Shown: piece by piece, positions 3,070 to 18,259 of the stretch
How the letters are laid out: each line of letters starts with the position of its first letter
Position numbering within the stretch: the stretch's first letter is position 1
Source: a virus
Virus record (IMG/VR): IMGVR_UViG_3300022927_000136
Location: 1 to 22,314 of that record
Direction: 5' to 3' (one strand)
Length of the DNA stretch: 22,314 nt
Made by a program: the position numbers and the translations under genes
The notes under the pieces: generated by a model
Told to the model about the DNA's origin: nothing
Seen by the model: the letters and a program-made list of their open reading frames with translations, nothing else
Databases searched by the model: none

Positions 3070-3101
3070 TTTGCAAAATTAGTATATAATATGTATATTT
3101 G
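3070..3101 (+). promoter_or_regulatory. Bacteroidota-type sigma-A promoter of the plus-strand operon
   Basis: TTTG (3070-3073), 20 bp, TATATTTG (3094-3101): an exact match to the -33/-7 consensus with ideal spacing, the best promoter in the window. The predicted start is near 3106, leaving a leader of about 20 nt before the ATG at 3126. Confidence 0.75.
3074..3081 (-). promoter_or_regulatory. Minus-strand -7 box TAATTTTG of the regulator gene
   Basis: A perfect TAnnTTTG on the minus strand, with a predicted start near 3069 and a 20-nt leader to the ATG at 3049. No -33 box is visible. It directly abuts the -33 box of the opposite promoter (3070-3073), so polymerase can hardly occupy both. Confidence 0.5.
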
Positions 3102-3685: not shown

Positions 3686-4270
3686 ATGCGACCTTTATAC
3701 GACTTTTTTGTAAAGTTGGAGAAGCCATTCGAGGAAGAATTTAAAGTTGGCTCGCTAACGCTCGCCAAGGATATGCGCTTCGACGACTTTGAAGGCCGAA
3801 TTTCGTATGCAGAAATAGTTGCTACACCTCAGAAATTTGGAACCGACGCCGAAATCGGCGATTTGCTTATTTTCCACCACCATATCAACCAAGAAAAGGA
3901 TAAGTATAGGGTGGATGGCGACGTGGTGAAGGTGTCATATGACCCAAAAAACTACCAGGGGCAGGCCTATGCGGCCATTTCCCCCTCCGGAGAGGTTAAG
4001 ATGCTTGGAGACTGGGTCTTCCTGCGCGCCGTGAGCCAAAAACAAGAGGAACAGGCCTCAAAATCTGGACTTTTTCTTGGATACAAGACAAAAGAAGACA
4101 ACCAAGAGGCAGAAGTATACTGCGAGGGCACCGGAACTGATGAACTCGAACTCAAAAAGGGTGATTTGGTCGGATATTCAAAGAATTCAGACTACCGAAT
4201 CAAGCTACCAAACGGAGATGAGGTTTTTCGTATGAAGCCAAACGACATTTTATATAAGAAAAATGGGTAG
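3686..4270 (+). CDS. GroES-like co-chaperonin with two Cpn10-type halves, 194 aa
   Basis: The product has two segments that each read like the GroES (Cpn10) fold. Residues about 12-114 contain EIGDLLIF, a His-His-His loop and a closing GDWVFLRAV. Residues about 124-191 contain KKGDLVGYSK and end FRMKPNDILY, closely matching the GroES pattern of vkxGDxV followed by a terminal exxDIL. GroES has about 97 residues, so 194 is almost exactly double. GroES-like phage proteins such as T4 gp31 cap the host GroEL ring, often to fold the capsid protein. Here the gene sits two bases after its upstream neighbour and overlaps the next by eight bases, directly upstream of the packaging genes. No clear GroEL-binding mobile loop can be pointed to, so function is inferred. 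Confidence 0.6.
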   Translation: MRPLYDFFVKLEKPFEEEFKVGSLTLAKDMRFDDFEGRISYAEIVATPQKFGTDAEIGDLLIFHHHINQEKDKYRVDGDVVKVSYDPKNYQGQAYAAISPSGEVKMLGDWVFLRAVSQKQEEQASKSGLFLGYKTKEDNQEAEVYCEGTGTDELELKKGDLVGYSKNSDYRIKLPNGDEVFRMKPNDILYKKNG

Positions 4271-4556
4271 GAAGCGACAGTTCAACACGGCAAACGAGAT
4301 GCAGGACTTCCTAGAGGCTATGGAGACTGCTATTCGCACTATGGTGCAGGAGATTCAAAAACCTGTCGACCCAGACATCTCTGGCTCCGCACGAAAAGCG
4401 GAACTGCAATCAATTAAGCAGACCGCCCAGGATTGTCGGGATATGTTCCGTATGCGTATGGAAGTAGAAAATATGCTCAGCGAAATTAGAGATGGCGGGG
4501 ATATGGAAGATATAAAAGATTTCTCCGCCGGCTTTGCCGAGCAGTTTAGTAAATAA
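4263..4556 (+). CDS. Probable small terminase subunit (by position), 97 aa
   Basis: The ATG at 4263 overlaps the end of the co-chaperonin gene by eight bases (shared ATGGGTAG). The product begins MGRKRQFNTANEMQDFLEAME and is almost entirely helical, with a basic N-terminus and a charged heptad-like stretch at about residues 45-80 (AELQSIKQTAQDCRDMFRMRM) that could form a coiled coil. Small terminase subunits usually combine an N-terminal DNA-binding part with a coiled-coil oligomerisation part and lie just upstream of the large subunit, as here. No clear helix-turn-helix is seen and the protein is short for the family, so a scaffold or other head protein remains possible. Its 3' end overlaps a lipoprotein gene on the other strand by 11 bases. 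Confidence 0.4.
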   Translation: MGRKRQFNTANEMQDFLEAMETAIRTMVQEIQKPVDPDISGSARKAELQSIKQTAQDCRDMFRMRMEVENMLSEIRDGGDMEDIKDFSAGFAEQFSK

Positions 4557-4686
4557 TATGGCTATGAATGGATGAATTGCTACAATCAACCACAGAACAA
4601 GATGGGTGTGTGTAGGACAATTCATAGCTGGAAGAACAAGAGGACAAGATAGACAAGATAAAGAGTGCGATTAGTAATTTTTTCAT
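4546..4686 (-). CDS. Small lipoprotein, 46 aa, antisense within the packaging operon
   Basis: A complete minus-strand frame runs from ATG at 4686 to TAA at 4548-4546. The product starts MKKLLIALFILSILSSCSSS, a textbook lipoprotein signal: two lysines, a 12-residue hydrophobic core and the lipobox Leu14-Ser-Ser-Cys17. The mature part is only about 30 residues, with Cys30 and Cys35, and ends SIHSHIIY. It fills the 168-base gap between the putative small terminase gene and the large terminase gene and points against both, tail to tail with the former (11-base overlap). A -7-like box lies at 4716-4709. Small phage lipoproteins such as T5 Llp block superinfection at the receptor, and entericidin-like or lysis-related roles are alternatives. 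Function is inferred. Confidence 0.6.
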   Translation of the reverse strand: MKKLLIALFILSILSSCSSSYELSYTHPSCSVVDCSNSSIHSHIIY

Positions 4687-4708
4687 ATGCTCCAATGTTA
4701 ATTTAATG

Positions 4709-4716
4709 TAAAGTTA
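4709..4716 (-). promoter_or_regulatory. Possible -7 box (TAACTTTA) for the lipoprotein gene
   Basis: On the minus strand this is one base from TAnnTTTG. The predicted start near 4704 would give an 18-nt leader, like the other short leaders in the window. No -33 box is seen. Confidence 0.25.
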
Positions 4717-4724
4717 CAAAAAAA

Positions 4725-6857
4725 ATGTCTGGTTTAATCAGTATTAAGGGATTCGACAGCGAGATTGTAAACATCTGCCCAAACAACACGTCTGGAAAGA
4801 TTGTGGAGATTGACGGCCTATATATTCAGCTGCCGGCCCAGCCAGACGACAAGGATATACTGTACCACAACCTCCCCAAAGAGAATCAGATGTGGAGCAG
4901 GAACGTTGTTCCGGACTCCATTGATAAAACAAAAACTATGGATGCGTGGATGGAGCAGCCAAAAGAGGTTCAGTCCAAATTCCTCCCGTATATTAAAGAA
5001 GAGTTCCGAAGGAGAAAAGAGGGGCTGTGGTTCTACAATAACGGTGTTCCAACATACATTACGGGTAACCATTATATGATGCTGCAGTGGAGCAAGATTG
5101 ATGGCTCTTTTTATGGCAACTATCTAGACTTTCAGCGAAAACTGTTCATACACGCTGAGGCGTGTAAGGTTGACCCGAGATGCGTTGGGCAGTTGTTTGT
5201 TAAGTGTCGACGCTCTGGATACACCAATATGGCCTCCTCGATGATTCTAAGCGAGGGTACCGTAGCAAAAGACAAGGTGTTGGGGATTATGTCAAAGACC
5301 GGCTCTGACGCTCAAGAGAACGTATTTATGAAGAAGGTTGTGCGTATGTACAAATCATACCCGTTCTTTTTCAAACCAATTCAAGATGGAACAACAAACC
5401 CGCGTATGGAGTTGGCCTTTCGTGAGCCTTCGCAAAGAATTACTAAAAGCAATAAGGCCGCCCAACAGGGAGAGGCGCTGAACTCGGTTATCAACTGGAG
5501 GAACACGGTGAACAACGCCTATGACGGAGAGCGTATGTATATGCTGTTTCTTGATGAAGCCGGAAAATGGGAAAAGCCAACGGACATACGAGAGGCGTGG
5601 AGAATCAACAGAACCTGCCTTATCGTTGGTAGAAAGGTTGTTGGAACGGCCCTGGTTGGCTCCACCGTTAATCCTATGGATAAGGGCGGCCAGCAGTTCA
5701 AAGACCTGTGGATGGACAGCAATCCATCCGAGAGAAACTCAAACGGAAGGACGCGCTCTATGTTGTACCGTATGTTTGTTCCAGCATACGAGGCGCTTGA
5801 GGGGTTCTTTGACAAGTACGGGAATCCAATCGTAGACACCCCAGAAGAGGCTGTGCTAAACAACGATGGCGAGTATGTGAATATAGGAGCTAGACAATAC
5901 CTAGAAAATGAGCGCAACGGACTAAAAAGCGATAAAAACGAACTTAACGAAGTTATTCGTCAGTTTCCGTTTTCTTCAGATGAGGCCTTTAGGGATTCTG
6001 TTGAGGGTAGCCTGTTTGACCTAGGAAAAATATACGAGCAGGTCAATTATAACGATATGATGTATCCGTCTCCAGTTGTTCGTGGTAATTTCCACTGGGC
6101 CGCCGGGGTAAAGGACACAGAGGTTCTGTGGGAGCCTAGCGCCGAAGGAAGGTGGTATTTGTCTTGGATGCAAAGTCAGGACAAGAGAAACAGTAGAGCA
6201 AAAGGCCGAAGTGGACATTGGTCCCCCGGTAACGCCGAAATGGGAGTTGGAGGATGTGACTCATATGACCTTGACTCCACGGTTGATGGGCGAGGCTCAA
6301 AGGGAGCCTGTCACTTTTACAACAAGTTCAATATGAACGACGTATCTAATATGTTTGTAGCAGAGTACGCGGAGAGGCCCCCGCTTGCATCTATATTCTA
6401 TGAAGACGTCCTTATGGCTGCTGTGTTCTTTGGCTATCCAATTCTAATAGAGAACAACAAGTACGGCATAGCGAGGTACTTCGAGCAAAGGGGGTATATA
6501 GACTATTTGCTAGATAGACCAAAACATCTTGGCGGCTCCGCATCATCCTCAAAGACAAAGGGTATACCGTCAAACTCTCAAGAGATACTTCAGGCTCACG
6601 CCCAGTCAATAGAGGCCTACATACACAAATATGTTGGGGAGCGAGAAGATGGCTCCTATGGAAATATGTATTTAAACAGAACGCTAGAAGATTGGATTTC
6701 ATTTAAGATTAACAATCGTACCAAATATGACCTGTCAATTTCAAGCGGTCTTGCCCTTCTTGCCGCACAGGTAAAAACAGATAAGCCGAAGTTGTCCAAC
6801 TTCGAAGGAAAAGAATTTTTTAGGCGGCATAAATACTGGACTAGGGATTCTATGTAA
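4725..6857 (+). CDS. terL: Large terminase subunit (DNA-packaging ATPase and nuclease), 710 aa
   Basis: The terminase motor pumps DNA through the portal into the empty head and cuts it. The N-terminal ATPase half shows KCRRSGYT (residues 160-167) at the Walker A position, a classical Walker B MYMLFLDEA (271-279, Asp277-Glu278) and a coupling motif VGSTVN (311-316). The C-terminal RNase H-like nuclease shows Asp512/Asp515 (GGCDSYDLD), Glu576 (PILIENNKYG) and Asp669 (YDLSISSGLALLAA), the expected acidic triad. The length is on the high side for the family. The Walker A lacks the usual GK-S/T lysine and has Lys at its first position, like the deviant P-loop I recall for phage lambda gpA. The ATG at 4725 follows an A-rich stretch without Shine-Dalgarno. 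The portal gene follows, and the likely small subunit precedes. Confidence 0.9.
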   Translation: MSGLISIKGFDSEIVNICPNNTSGKIVEIDGLYIQLPAQPDDKDILYHNLPKENQMWSRNVVPDSIDKTKTMDAWMEQPKEVQSKFLPYIKEEFRRRKEGLWFYNNGVPTYITGNHYMMLQWSKIDGSFYGNYLDFQRKLFIHAEACKVDPRCVGQLFVKCRRSGYTNMASSMILSEGTVAKDKVLGIMSKTGSDAQENVFMKKVVRMYKSYPFFFKPIQDGTTNPRMELAFREPSQRITKSNKAAQQGEALNSVINWRNTVNNAYDGERMYMLFLDEAGKWEKPTDIREAWRINRTCLIVGRKVVGTALVGSTVNPMDKGGQQFKDLWMDSNPSERNSNGRTRSMLYRMFVPAYEALEGFFDKYGNPIVDTPEEAVLNNDGEYVNIGARQYLENERNGLKSDKNELNEVIRQFPFSSDEAFRDSVEGSLFDLGKIYEQVNYNDMMYPSPVVRGNFHWAAGVKDTEVLWEPSAEGRWYLSWMQSQDKRNSRAKGRSGHWSPGNAEMGVGGCDSYDLDSTVDGRGSKGACHFYNKFNMNDVSNMFVAEYAERPPLASIFYEDVLMAAVFFGYPILIENNKYGIARYFEQRGYIDYLLDRPKHLGGSASSSKTKGIPSNSQEILQAHAQSIEAYIHKYVGEREDGSYGNMYLNRTLEDWISFKINNRTKYDLSISSGLALLAAQVKTDKPKLSNFEGKEFFRRHKYWTRDSM

Positions 6858-11689: not shown

Positions 11690-14600
11690 ATGGCAATTCG
11701 TTATCTGTCCGGTATAAACGTAGACTCCAATACATTATTTGTTGATGATGCTAATAACCGTGTTGGTATTGGTACTGCGAGTCCAACTACGTCACTGGAT
11801 GTTGTTGCGTCTAGTACTACAAGTGTAGATATAGCTCACTTTGCAAACTCCAATCAGGTAGCTAAGGTTCTAATAAAGCTTGATGGAGTTGGTTCTTCTG
11901 CAATTTCTATGCTTGATGCTGGGAACAATGAGGACATTTTACTTAGCACACAAGGAAACTCTTGGTTCAACGCAGGAAACGTCGGTATTGGTACTACCAT
12001 TCCGGGGCAAAAACTAGAGATAAATCAAGGTGGTACTGGTAATGGTGAAATTGTAAGAATGCGTTACAATGCATCTTACTATACTGATTATGGGTCAAAT
12101 CAAATAAACTTTACTGGAACTAACCAAATATTTTCTTTTAAAAACAATGGTACTGATGTTGTCCGATTAGCAGCAAATGGCAACGTCGGTATTGGTACAA
12201 CTAGTCCTACTGCTAAGCTTGTTGTTCAAGGAGCTGCTGGAAATCTATATATAGACGACTTAGGCGCTGGGTATAACTACTATGATGCAAGCAACGTACA
12301 CAACTTTAGAAATACTGCAGGAATATCTAGACTGTATATAAATACCGCAACTGGAAACGTAGGCATTGGCACTACGAGTCCGTCAACAAGGCTTCATACT
12401 ATTGTTGATTTTAGCGTTAGCACCACTGATTATGTAAATGGTACGACGGGTTCAAGACTGCTTTTAAAGACTTTCGCTAGTACAGGTAATACATATTCTC
12501 TTATTCAAGCACAGGATGTAGGCGGCACGAGTAATAACGCATTGGTTTTACAGCCTTACGGAGACAACGTAGGTATTGGTACTGCTGCTCCAGACCAAAA
12601 GTTGCACGTAGTTGGTAATGCTAAAGTCACAGGAGTATTTTATACCGACTACGTTCAAACGCTAAGCGGAACATCAATTGACTTTAGACATCAAGATGCA
12701 TCTACGATTATGCGTGTTGACACCGCTAATGCAAGAGTAGGTATTGGTACTACAAGTCCTGCAGGTAAGTTAGATATTCGCCAAGCTCAAAGCACAACAG
12801 CGTTTGCTTACCCTTTCTTAAAGTTATATCCATCCGCTACAACAAACGTAACTGGATTAACAACAATTACTCTTGGAACATCTCCAGTAGACAGTTACGG
12901 TGTCTCATTAAGTGGGTGGAGATACGGGACCGATGGGGACCCTAAGTTCATCATCAAGATGCATTACGGTACTGCAAATGGTCTTGATGCTTTAACTATT
13001 AACTCTTCAGGCAACGTCGGCATTGGTACTACTAGTCCTACAAATAAATTAGACATTAGACCGACCACCTCTGGCGGTTCTGACGTAATTGGAACAGGGG
13101 CTATTACTGTTGGTTCGGATAATCCGTACTGGACACTTAGGGGTACAGCAACATCATTACAAGATTTAGCTTTTGACAGAAGCTATTCAGGTACTTGGTA
13201 CGAGGCAATGAGGATTCAAAGAAGTACAGGTAACGTAGGTATCGGCACAACGAATCCGTTTCAAAAACTTCAAGTAGACGGAAGCATTTACTCTAACGGA
13301 GGCAATCTTTATGTCAACGGGGGAAAAGCTTTAATAGCCGTTGGAGATTTGGCATTTCAAACAAATAATGGTACAAGCTACGCAGAAGTAATGCGTATGA
13401 CCGGTGCTGGCAACGTTGGTATTGGAACTACGAGTCCGGGTTATAAGTTGGATGTAAACGGGGAGAGCCGGGTACAGGGTCAATTTAGAATTACTGGCAA
13501 CAATATTGTAGGCGGGTACACAGATATTACCGGAGTTATCTATCACAGAAATGATTTAACCTCTTTAAACAAGGCTGGAACTGGTTGGGTAGGCTGGGCA
13601 ATCAGAAACACTTCAGGAAGTGAAACTGTAACTGACCTACAAAACATAGGTACGTTTAGCGCTTCGGGAGCTGTAACGTTATCCAACTACGGAGCAGGTT
13701 ACCTCAAGTCAGATGCTAGCGGTAATATTACTGTAGATGCTGACATCATTGAGGACACGTTAGACAGCGTTACGGATAGAGGTAATACTACGACTAATAA
13801 CATCACTGTAGGCAACCTTACAGCTAACGGAAATATCACCACAAACACAGGAATATTTTATAGTGGTAATGCAGCTAAATTAGACCTTAACCAATACAAC
13901 GCTGGTTATCTAAGACTGCTTACTGACAACACTGAAAGGGTTAGGATAACAGCCACAGGCAACGTCGGTATTGGCACTACTAGTCCGACTTATAAGCTTG
14001 ATGTAAACGGAGAAGCTAGATTTGGTGGTAATGTAAATATCTACAAGACATCTCCTAAATTAACTGTTGAGGCAAGTGATGCAAATCAAGCAAGTATTGA
14101 TGTAAAAAATACATCGTTATACGCAAGATGGATTTTAGATGCAGATGACCTCTTTAGAGTATATAATCAAACATCAGCCTTTGATGCATTTGCTGTTAAA
14201 TCTTCAGGTAACGTAGGTATTGGTACTAATAGTCCAGCTTCTAAGCTACACGTTGTAGGCGATGCCCGCATTGAAGGTAACCTAACCATCAACGGAACAG
14301 TAACTCAGATTGACACAGACACCTTAACTACAGAGCAGTGGTTAGTTACTAATGATGGAACGGGTCCGGCTGTTGTAATCAATCAGAAAGGCTCACAGCC
14401 TGTTATTGATATCCAAGACGATGGTACAAGTGTAATGTACATTGAGGATGGCGGTAACGTTGGTATTGGGACTACTAGTCCTGGTACTAGGCTTCACGTA
14501 TCAAAAACTGACCTATCAAATGAACTTGTAGCAGTAAGAGTACAGAACGACACAAACTATTCTGAGTTTGGTACTCAGAGTGGATATGCGAGAATCCTGT

Positions 14601-17600
14601 CTGGTGGGTATCTTTTATATGCTGGCTCAAGTAATTCCACTTATTTCTACAACGGTGGGAATGTAGTAATGACTACGAACTACCTAGGCAACGTAGGCAT
14701 TGGGGATACTACACCATCTTATAGACTTGATGTAAGCGGTGACGCTAGAGTAACGTCTCACTTGTACTCAAATGCAAGTATGAGAGCACCCATCTTCTAT
14801 GATATAGATGATACTAATTACTATGTAAACCCAGCTGGTGCTACATCAGCAATTCTAGCAGGTAACGTTGGTATTGGAACTAATAGTCCTTATGGTAAGT
14901 TAGATGTTATTGGAGATAGTTCTAGTCACGTAGCAAGATTTTCAAACCTAACTACCACAGGATATGCTCCGGGGTCTATTCTTCTTGAAGCGGGTCAATC
15001 AGACTCTAGAGGTCAGGGTGTATATCATTACAATCCAGTAGCCGATGAATCTTGGTTTACAGGTGTTCCTTATGCTGTAGGAAGTAGGAAGTGGATTGTA
15101 GCTAATAAACTAGACTCTGTTTGGAATCCAGACGTAGCACAGCTCAGCTATGCGATGATGACTATTGATTCTGACACTGGCAACGTAGGCATTGGTACTA
15201 CTAGTCCAACAGCGACACTAGACGTTGCTGGTGAAATAGCAATAAGAGGGGGGGAGTCTGCTGATGATGCCAGAATGTATTTTAGAGCATCTGACAATAG
15301 TAACAGGTTTACTATTGAGACAGACTTGGATGGCACTACAAGCAACGATTTACTGACATTTAGAGCAGCAAATGCTGATGACATCTTAGTACTCAAAGGA
15401 AACGGTAACGTCGGTATTGGTACTAGTAGTCCTAATGCAATACTAGCCATCAAGAGTGGCTCTAATTCTGATTTAGAGTTTTTCTCAGAAGCTTCAGGCA
15501 CGGCACTTCAGTCTTATAATAGAACTTCAAGTGCTTGGGGATATTTAAGATTTCTTGCTGGTGGCGGAGAGCAAATGCGTATCCACACTAATGGCAACGT
15601 AGGTATTGGTACTACTAGTCCTGCCGCTAAGCTTCACGTACATGAAACTACAGCTGGTATTGGTGGTGTTTTAGTTGGGAATGCAAGTAATTCAAATTCA
15701 GCTTATTCAGCAGTTACACTTAAGAGTGACTATCCACATTCATACTATCCCGGATTATTCTTAAACTCATCCACTAACACTGCTTACGCAGGTGTTGACC
15801 AATTGATGCTTTATCAGTTCCATAGTAAGCCTATAGCATTAGTAACTAATAACACTGTAAGATTAACAGTGACAGGCTCAGGCGATGTCGGAATTGGTAC
15901 TACTAGCCCAGTTGAAAAGCTTTCTGTTAATGGTAATATAAACTCAAATAAAGTATTAGCAGGAACAACTGCTAATTTAGCATATTCAGAAGGTACAGGT
16001 GGTACTAACGGACAGATATACCTTAATCCTTTACGTGGTAATAGAACACTCTCAATTACTACACAGCAATCAGCTGCCGGCGATGATATAGACGGAACAA
16101 CAATTAGTACATTCTACACAAACACAGGAAATCCAGTGGATTTACTATTTAAGAATGGTTCTACTAATACAATGATTCTGAAGTCTACAGGCAACGTCGG
16201 TATTGGAACTACATCGCCTACTGCGGCACTACACGTTCAAAAATCTATTAGTGGTGGATTTGCAGGAACTGTATACAATACTCAATCTACTGGTGGGTTT
16301 GGGTTAAGTGTAAGAGGAGGAAACTCATCTTCTGAAGACGCATTAAGAGTGCAAAATGTAGGTGGTTCATATTTATTAAATGTAAAAGGAGATGGCAACG
16401 TAGGTATTGGTACAACAGCACCATCTGTTCAACTAGATATTGAAGATAGTGGTAATGTAATAGTAGACTTAAATACTACTACCGCTAACGCCAACACTAC
16501 TGTTAGATTCCAAGAAAGTGGTACAGTAAAAGCTACTATGGGTTACGAAGGTACTTCTGATGTGGTGCTTATTGCAAACGGAGGATTTACTGCTGGTAAC
16601 GGTATTAACATTGATGCAAGTAACAACGTAGGTATTGGTACTGCTAGTCCTACCTCTCCTTTGCACGTAGTATCTTCCACTAACAAGACATTACTCTTAG
16701 ATTACACAGGAGGCTCAGGATCATATACCTGGGCATCTTTTAAACAAAGTGGCACTGAGCAGTTTAGAATTTGGGGAGACTATTCTAATAACTATTTAAG
16801 CTTTTATAACGACCAAACCAGCAGCCATCAATTAACATTAGCTTCTAACGCCTACGTGGGTATTGGTACTAGCAATCCTCAAAAGCCTTTACACGTTATT
16901 AGTGCTAACGATGCTCCTATTAGAGTTGAGTCAACAGATCCAACTACAGGTATATTATTTGTTGATTCAGATAGTAGCAATGCTTTATACTATGTAGGAT
17001 CTGGAGATTATTTTTACACAAGTTCTAAATTAGGCATTGGTACTACTAGTCCGGCTGCAAAACTTGATGTATCTACCACTGGAACAGTTCAGACTGCCAT
17101 ACTTGGGCGTGGCTCTGATACCAACTTTAGACTTATATCTAGGCAGGATGTAACCGCAAATACAAGTGGTGCTGTAATAGGTGAGTTTGGACTAGACCAT
17201 ACCACAACTAGGAATGCTGCAATAAGATTCCATAGGGGTGGCTCATCTACTGGTGGTTTTATAACACTTACCGCAAATGATGGTACGGAGAGAGTGCGAA
17301 TCGCTTCAGATGGCAAGGTAGGTATTGGTACTACAAGTCCTAACCACAGAGTTGACATTTATTCTAACGAGAATGTACCATTAAGAATACACAGACCTAG
17401 TAATGCTAATCTAGATTCATCAGGTGCTTGGGGTATAGGTTTTTCTACTAGGGGTGATGCTAATACTAGCACGACAGATACTAGAGCAGGTATTTTTAGT
17501 TACTACAATGGTAATCTTTTCTTGGCTGCTGCTAATACAAGTATTGTAGCAGACCCGGATGCTTATGCTAGATTAACTATTCTTAATACTGGATACGTAG

Positions 17601-18259
17601 GTATTGGTACTACTAGCCCATCACAAGAGCTTCACGTATCTGGCAACCTCCGGGTAACTGGAGCCTACTACGACTCCAACAACTCAGCAGGAACTAGCGG
17701 ACAGATTCTAAAGTCTACAGGTACTGGTACTGACTGGGTAACTCTTTCTGAGATCACAGGAGTAGACGGAACCGGTACTGCTAACTACATTGCTAAGTGG
17801 AGCGATACGGACACTATTGCTAACTCACAGATTCAAGACAACGGAACCACTGTTGGTATTGGACAAGCTCCGGGATCTGCTAAGCTTTCTGTTGCTGGAA
17901 ACTCAATAGAGGCTGGCGGTAAGGTAACCTACAAAAAATCATATAGCTCTGGCGTTGACACAACAGGTGTTGCTGTTGCTGGTCTTCCATCTTCATCCAA
18001 TGGAAATAGCACATTGCTTGAATTCACTTGTAGCGGAGGCGCTGGACACTACCAAAAAATCGTATATAGTTGCTGGAATGCTGCTACTGTTTGGTATACT
18101 AAAAAAGTTGTTGATGAGGGCACTAATGCCTTTGATGTTGAAGCATCTGCTGATGCGGCAACTATTACTTTTACGTTTAAATCAAGAAGCGGTTTACAGC
18201 AATACACTCCAAAAATTGTTGTTGAAGCCAATGGAACTTACGACACCTCTTACTTATAA
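11690..18259 (+). CDS. Giant repeat tail-fibre protein, 2189 aa
   Basis: The N-terminus MAIRYLSGINVDSNTLFVDD resembles that of the previous fibre and may be a shared docking peptide. The body is a long series of about 26 units, each built around NVGIGTTSP followed by KLDV or KLHV, at spacings of roughly 55-100 residues, with unrelated Ser/Thr/Asn/Gly-rich beta sequence between them. This repeat is common in predicted fibres of marine viruses and probably forms an elongated trimeric stalk carrying receptor-binding segments. One interval (about residues 580-755) is much longer and contains LKSDASGNITVDADIIEDTL. The last unit is degenerate (VGIGQAPGSAKLSV). A different C-terminal domain of about 110 residues, with SCWNAATVWYTKKVV, follows. 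I see no S74-type self-cleaving chaperone signature. A second giant fibre starts ten bases later. Confidence 0.8.
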   Translation: MAIRYLSGINVDSNTLFVDDANNRVGIGTASPTTSLDVVASSTTSVDIAHFANSNQVAKVLIKLDGVGSSAISMLDAGNNEDILLSTQGNSWFNAGNVGIGTTIPGQKLEINQGGTGNGEIVRMRYNASYYTDYGSNQINFTGTNQIFSFKNNGTDVVRLAANGNVGIGTTSPTAKLVVQGAAGNLYIDDLGAGYNYYDASNVHNFRNTAGISRLYINTATGNVGIGTTSPSTRLHTIVDFSVSTTDYVNGTTGSRLLLKTFASTGNTYSLIQAQDVGGTSNNALVLQPYGDNVGIGTAAPDQKLHVVGNAKVTGVFYTDYVQTLSGTSIDFRHQDASTIMRVDTANARVGIGTTSPAGKLDIRQAQSTTAFAYPFLKLYPSATTNVTGLTTITLGTSPVDSYGVSLSGWRYGTDGDPKFIIKMHYGTANGLDALTINSSGNVGIGTTSPTNKLDIRPTTSGGSDVIGTGAITVGSDNPYWTLRGTATSLQDLAFDRSYSGTWYEAMRIQRSTGNVGIGTTNPFQKLQVDGSIYSNGGNLYVNGGKALIAVGDLAFQTNNGTSYAEVMRMTGAGNVGIGTTSPGYKLDVNGESRVQGQFRITGNNIVGGYTDITGVIYHRNDLTSLNKAGTGWVGWAIRNTSGSETVTDLQNIGTFSASGAVTLSNYGAGYLKSDASGNITVDADIIEDTLDSVTDRGNTTTNNITVGNLTANGNITTNTGIFYSGNAAKLDLNQYNAGYLRLLTDNTERVRITATGNVGIGTTSPTYKLDVNGEARFGGNVNIYKTSPKLTVEASDANQASIDVKNTSLYARWILDADDLFRVYNQTSAFDAFAVKSSGNVGIGTNSPASKLHVVGDARIEGNLTINGTVTQIDTDTLTTEQWLVTNDGTGPAVVINQKGSQPVIDIQDDGTSVMYIEDGGNVGIGTTSPGTRLHVSKTDLSNELVAVRVQNDTNYSEFGTQSGYARILSGGYLLYAGSSNSTYFYNGGNVVMTTNYLGNVGIGDTTPSYRLDVSGDARVTSHLYSNASMRAPIFYDIDDTNYYVNPAGATSAILAGNVGIGTNSPYGKLDVIGDSSSHVARFSNLTTTGYAPGSILLEAGQSDSRGQGVYHYNPVADESWFTGVPYAVGSRKWIVANKLDSVWNPDVAQLSYAMMTIDSDTGNVGIGTTSPTATLDVAGEIAIRGGESADDARMYFRASDNSNRFTIETDLDGTTSNDLLTFRAANADDILVLKGNGNVGIGTSSPNAILAIKSGSNSDLEFFSEASGTALQSYNRTSSAWGYLRFLAGGGEQMRIHTNGNVGIGTTSPAAKLHVHETTAGIGGVLVGNASNSNSAYSAVTLKSDYPHSYYPGLFLNSSTNTAYAGVDQLMLYQFHSKPIALVTNNTVRLTVTGSGDVGIGTTSPVEKLSVNGNINSNKVLAGTTANLAYSEGTGGTNGQIYLNPLRGNRTLSITTQQSAAGDDIDGTTISTFYTNTGNPVDLLFKNGSTNTMILKSTGNVGIGTTSPTAALHVQKSISGGFAGTVYNTQSTGGFGLSVRGGNSSSEDALRVQNVGGSYLLNVKGDGNVGIGTTAPSVQLDIEDSGNVIVDLNTTTANANTTVRFQESGTVKATMGYEGTSDVVLIANGGFTAGNGINIDASNNVGIGTASPTSPLHVVSSTNKTLLLDYTGGSGSYTWASFKQSGTEQFRIWGDYSNNYLSFYNDQTSSHQLTLASNAYVGIGTSNPQKPLHVISANDAPIRVESTDPTTGILFVDSDSSNALYYVGSGDYFYTSSKLGIGTTSPAAKLDVSTTGTVQTAILGRGSDTNFRLISRQDVTANTSGAVIGEFGLDHTTTRNAAIRFHRGGSSTGGFITLTANDGTERVRIASDGKVGIGTTSPNHRVDIYSNENVPLRIHRPSNANLDSSGAWGIGFSTRGDANTSTTDTRAGIFSYYNGNLFLAAANTSIVADPDAYARLTILNTGYVGIGTTSPSQELHVSGNLRVTGAYYDSNNSAGTSGQILKSTGTGTDWVTLSEITGVDGTGTANYIAKWSDTDTIANSQIQDNGTTVGIGQAPGSAKLSVAGNSIEAGGKVTYKKSYSSGVDTTGVAVAGLPSSSNGNSTLLEFTCSGGAGHYQKIVYSCWNAATVWYTKKVVDEGTNAFDVEASADAATITFTFKSRSGLQQYTPKIVVEANGTYDTSYL

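Follow-up and report, generated by a model that had tools for sequence, protein, structure and literature searches.

An antisense lipoprotein gene at the terminase junction of marine Bacteroidota phages, accompanied by a Pho-box-like element

Between the terminase genes of a marine Bacteroidota phage, represented by 22,314 nucleotides of DNA (positions 1 to 22,314 of IMG/VR record IMGVR_UViG_3300022927_000136, called the window here), the minus strand carries a short frame that is a genuine, conserved gene under selection. It stands far beyond chance, because homologues of 25-98% identity are found at the same place and on the same strand in dozens of contigs and have been held under purifying selection. 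The predicted product is a tiny lipoprotein, and the unexpected aspect is its control box, which looks to be of the host phosphate-regulon type.

The features of the locus are collected in Table 1. The lipoprotein frame, which translates into the 46-aa protein MKKLLIALFILSILSSCSSSYELSYTHPSCSVVDCSNSSIHSHIIY*, occupies the 168-nt gap 4557-4724 with the TerS-like gene on one side and the gene of the terminase large subunit (TerL) on the other, shares 11 nt with the 3' end of the former, and opposes the packaging genes, among which this gap is the sole junction of more than 100 nt. The N-terminus shows two Lys, a hydrophobic core and a lipobox L14-S-S-C17, after which a mature lipopeptide of 30 residues would be left. 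The initial annotation had described such a frame, its lipoprotein signal and its exceptional gap from the letters alone, and this description holds in all its coordinates. The Pfam model LPAM_1 matches residues 1-18 with 18.4 bits (E 0.003), just below its cut-off of 20. Under a single criterion for lipoprotein ORFs, this frame has been the only one to pass in the whole window, and random 220-nt stretches of matched dinucleotide composition have passed in ∼0.01% of trials (about 1 in 10,000).

Table 1. Features of the terminase junction in the window
Feature	Position	Strand	Basis
Gene of 97 aa preceding TerL, TerS-like by position	4263..4556	plus	ORF, conserved before TerL in relatives
Predicted tiny lipoprotein gene, 46 codons + stop	4546..4686	minus	ORF, homologues, pN/pS
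C-terminal motif C30-x4-C35-x5-H41-x-H43	4558..4599	minus	34/35 members; first H replaced by R in one
Signal peptide (residues 1-16) and lipobox Cys17	4636..4686	minus	Sequence, LPAM_1 match, Cys invariant in alignments
Pho-box-like direct repeat TTTACAT-TAAA-TTAACAT	4695..4712	minus	Set 8 nt ahead of the lipoprotein start codon
Possible -7 element TAACTTTA, 7/8 to TAnnTTTG, overlapping the box	4709..4716	minus	Proposed from sequence
Terminase large subunit (TerL)	4725..6857	plus	phrog_6681, E 4.9e-181

The surroundings are those of a packaging gene block. The TerS-like gene has found no match in PHROG and none above cut-off in Pfam; it is directly preceded by a GroES-like co-chaperonin (phrog_13932, window 3686-4270), a gene also annotated close to TerL in phages of Flavobacterium and Cellulophaga. 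A textbook Bacteroidota promoter, TTTG-N20-TATATTTG, lies at 3070-3101 ahead of the forward block that runs to TerL and portal, and further downstream (11690-18259) a fibre-like protein of 2189 aa with many NVGIGTTSP-type repeats is encoded.

Relatives of the gene have been reached from two sides. Scanning viral contigs with TerL has returned close copies with at most one residue changed (L001-L007), many phages whose TerS-like gene directly adjoins TerL, and a more distant locus (L074, TerL 63-64% identical) whose gap holds the minus-strand frame MRVLLGICAVCLLSSCASSTSAAAQTCVIEDCGITAVHSHTSYWATY, which has the lipobox, C-x3-D-C and HSH in common with the window protein; a second TerL scan has brought further carriers. 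A scan of 2.9 million viral contigs with the protein only has retrieved the same small lipoprotein at 37 loci, and in all 37 the gene lies antisense at the junction of a TerS-like gene and TerL. Position was never part of that query, and the protein therefore predicts the position. For 35 coding sequences in six groups, pN/pS amounts to 0.24-0.51, in sums built from non-independent pairs, with 0.51 for the window's own group, where changes are few. The initial annotation had named a lipobox-bearing small ORF at the same position in related phages, with more synonymous than non-synonymous change, as what should be seen for a real gene, and both have been observed. Alternative frames are interrupted by stops in all 35 members, except for one on the same strand that is interrupted in 29 of them.

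The family, whose frames measure 41-50 codons, appears by sequence to carry the hallmarks of a bacterial lipoprotein, namely a Lys/Arg n-region, a hydrophobic core and a lipobox ending in Cys. The lipobox is present in every one of the 35 members, and its Cys is invariant in alignments A3 and A7. Towards the C-terminus C-x4-C-x5-[HR]-x-H is kept in all members but L163, which has C-x5-C, and the predicted mature lengths are ∼26-36 residues. By simple inspection for the acidic export signal (LES) of surface-exposed Bacteroidota lipoproteins, an acidic residue follows the Cys at +2 to +6 in seven of the 35 members including the window's (SSSYE), and is lacking there in the remaining 28.

This lipoprotein family is without counterpart in Pfam, PHROGs, NCBIfam, the PDB and cultured phage records. 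Models of Pfam, NCBIfam and PHROG match it weakly and chiefly via the signal peptide, no solved structure matches past the first 20-25 residues, and tblastn searches of phage and plasmid records with the 46- or 47-aa proteins have given zero matches. The full-family alignment is too diverse for seeding scans; with alignment A4, bacterial genome contigs have yielded 22 pattern matches, none of which was confirmed, and thus no bacterial homologue has been found at that sensitivity. In the cultured relatives MW202828, elemoB, phi13:2, Calle_1 and Gundel_1, the TerS/TerL junction shows neither an annotated gene nor a comparable gap. An AlphaFold2 model from 25 sequences has been of low confidence and uninformative (pLDDT 57).

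The distribution of the gene is patchy. Among 143 loci selected by TerL and with enough upstream sequence, from which those retrieved by the protein itself were left out as biased, 23 carry it, and on a midpoint-rooted FastTree phylogeny of TerL its presence and absence require 12 changes, at least 10 of them forced by well supported branches. One locus nested among carriers (L090) is without the gene, and its comparison with L089 reveals a clean block of ∼175 nt bounded by ...GGGATTATTA and ATGGCGGGA. Lipoprotein gene and 18-bp box behave as one cassette, which some phages have at the TerS/TerL junction and others lack.

Other material occupies the same junction elsewhere. The gaps of L021-L028 have been considered for the same gene and dismissed; their content is a forward TATATTTG promoter-like stretch, which in L021 and L023-L028 stands ahead of TerL in place of the lipoprotein. 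Small or medium insertions are present in L099 (3430-3596, a Cys-rich 47-aa frame), L136 (5435-6001), L159 (3970-6001) and L161 (3628-6001), and since further genes have been inserted here, the junction seems to be a hot spot for gene gain. Loci of the 27-60 nt gap class, among them L090, L074, L120, L123, L124 and L126, have a conserved +1-frame tail past the TerS-like stop, x-x-(W)VF(I/V)YWD(Y/S/Q)*, whose changes fall largely on synonymous positions, and this pattern points to a programmed +1 frameshift at that stop codon. The window's own gene shows no such tail.

The lipoprotein and TerL genes start divergently, with a single conserved block between their start codons. On the lipoprotein strand its consensus is TTWACAY-TAAM-TTAACAY (18 bp), one member having T at the sixth base, and it stands beside 34 of the 35 lipoprotein genes, ending 7-8 nt ahead of the start codon in 31 of these 34. 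Across ∼160 loci the box is confined to the site beside the lipoprotein gene; at a tolerance of one mismatch, nine whole phage records whose loci carry the gene have a single copy each, and six others have none. Separate expression of the gene, as initially proposed, is supported by this box of its own. The proposed transcript start near 4704 has turned out to point to the right region, which holds no perfect TAnnTTTG, the flavobacterial -7 element (PMC9723704), and instead the conserved box. About 20 of the 34 members have a near-consensus TAnnTTTA that overlaps the first repeat, and no perfect sigma-A -7 element TAnnTTTG has been found on either side of the phage box at the spacing seen in hosts.

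The same box has been encountered in bacteria. Exact matches to the box in 84,980 species genomes amount to at least 80 loci; ∼64 of 80 are Bacteroidota by title among the matches listed, and the 63 neighbouring genes tested among these matches include PHO4 (4), Na/Pi cotransporter (2), PhoU-like DUF47 (2) and Porin_O_P (1). In Flavobacteriaceae, a perfect NTWACAY-N4-NTWACAY within 380 nt upstream accompanies 13 of 30 PHO4 genes (0.13 in shuffles) and 8 of 30 Porin_O_P genes (0.17), all in one orientation, two of the porin boxes (L409, L410) being identical to phage forms; none was found upstream of gyrB (0/30, shuffles 0.06) or of PhoX-like genes (0/20). TAnnTTTG follows the host box at a distance of 17-19 or 30-31 nt in 9 cases (shuffle 0.45) and lies 29-30 nt away on the opposite side in 14, a contrast somewhat flattered by the fact that the distances were chosen after part of the same data had been viewed. 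In the host loci (L203-L282, L361-L438), TAnnTTTG stands downstream of the candidate box as well as on its opposite side, and genes are apparently driven in both directions. The host box thus behaves as a promoter-linked regulator site, and its gene set points to phosphate.

Since the box also stands upstream of phosphate transporters and porins of Flavobacteriaceae, the phage element looks like a host-type phosphate (Pho) box. It resembles the direct repeats bound by PhoB in its 7-bp units and 11-bp period, and it is common to phosphate genes of the likely hosts. It differs in standing 7-8 nt before a start codon without a -7 element at a spacing that would permit activation. As PhoX-like genes lack the box and the F. 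johnsoniae porin OprP was not induced by phosphate depletion (PMC8115612), PhoB is its regulator only by inference. Control of phage genes by host PhoBR has a precedent in cyanophages (PMC10976474), where phage genes are likewise linked to the phosphate regulator of the host; phosphate depletion induces the cyanophage genes, several of which have known metabolic roles, whereas here the box sits in the start region of an uncharacterised lipoprotein.

Regarding function, our best guess is superinfection exclusion from the periplasmic side, as for T5 Llp, Cor and Rtp45, and we tentatively favor a scheme in which the peptide alters an outer-membrane protein to exclude sibling phages under a box read by a PhoB-type regulator, with repression as the likelier outcome. 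The peptide would be exported by Sec, lipidated and anchored in the outer membrane, and most members, without a surface-export-like acidic residue just after the Cys, would face the periplasm. A C-C disulfide or a metal at CX4CX5HXH may keep it compact, and it would most likely bind an outer-membrane protein from inside and alter it, like Llp acting on FhuA or Rtp45 acting on LptD, so that sibling phages are kept out of the infected cell or off debris. The host's PhoB-type phosphate regulator would read the box. If TAnnTTTA serves as the -7 element, the start region falls under the box and a bound regulator would repress, leaving the gene mainly on at sufficient phosphate and off in starved cells. 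Repression through the box appears more plausible than classical activation, since the likely transcription start is either covered by the box or immediately precedes it, and since, by the host spacing, an activated transcript would begin inside the ORF.

Small periplasmic phage lipoproteins with a disulfide are known to modify outer-membrane receptors from inside (PMC9586334, PMC12685063). T5 Llp, with its disulfide Cys11-Cys58, is alike as a small phage lipoprotein at the periplasmic face of the outer membrane with two further cysteines (PMC9586334), but its chain is longer (83 residues), the alignment of the two proteins covers residues 1-20 only, and both its genomic place and the Pho-type box set the two genes apart. 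Rtp45 of phage Rtp, a ∼6 kDa lipoprotein with a disulfide Cys30-Cys38, acts on an outer-membrane protein from the periplasmic side (PMC12685063); about twice the size of the mature window peptide, it is likened to the latter by description. The Cor proteins are small exclusion lipoproteins with a weak N-terminal match (NF047972, 15.3 bits against a cut-off of 31, residues 1-33; phrog_1119, residues 1-32) that leaves the H-x-H part unaligned. The initial annotation had invoked exclusion as for T5 Llp; the mature part, however, is without homology to Llp or Cor, the matches being weak and below cut-off where one exists. With these confined to the N-terminal signal-peptide part, we infer the exclusion role from the kind of protein.

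Other readings have to be weighed against exclusion. The lipoprotein might be a phosphate-linked auxiliary that aids or modulates a Pho-regulated porin or transporter and so provides phosphate for phage DNA. The box is common to a porin-Pit phosphate operon, the Na/Pi cotransporter and PhoU-like genes, and PhoB-controlled genes occur in cyanophages, but the peptide is very small and without homology to any phosphate protein, and the position of its box speaks against induction under starvation, so that we regard this role as unlikely. We give still less credence to a variant of exclusion in which the peptide inactivates a phosphate-regulated porin or transporter used as receptor, one host box tuning both receptor and blocker, with exclusion following the phosphate state. 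Distinctly doubtful, too, is a small peptide that acts on membranes or binds metal, as an entericidin-like agent or a metal scavenger, and has another role in host takeover: CX4CX5HXH does resemble a metal site, yet the AlphaFold2 model lends it no structural support and the library matches are weak and N-terminal. An Rz1-like outer-membrane spanin for host lysis is very improbable, despite the small outer-membrane lipoprotein and weak PHROG matches to Rz-like spanins. Those of the window protein begin at the signal peptide (E 0.007-0.009), and Cor gets similarly weak ones; the proteins are proline-poor (0-3 Pro, mostly 0); the gene stands alone and antisense among packaging genes, flanked by TerS-like and TerL genes and without an adjacent Rz partner in the inner membrane; and its patchy distribution fits an accessory rather than a lysis gene. 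That there is no protein gene, and the conserved part only serves the terminase operon as a regulatory or RNA element, as the conserved box and a short inverted repeat noticed by eye in the gap could suggest, is scarcely credible given the protein-level conservation, the stops in other frames, the retrieval of the same position by protein alone and zero Rfam matches for the region.

Relative to the libraries searched, the lipoproteins form a new family, encoded by an antisense frame in a packaging operon that gene callers easily overlook. A presumably membrane-acting phage protein is here tied to a host operator of the phosphate type, and a candidate Bacteroidota Pho box, NTWACAY-N4-NTWACAY with phased TAnnTTTG, has been defined along with it. 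As the gene is present in some and absent from others of nearly identical phages, a natural comparison is at hand. Exclusion from the periplasmic side remains our preferred reading, and the findings suggest that these phages have a hitherto undescribed means of altering the outer membrane of the host.
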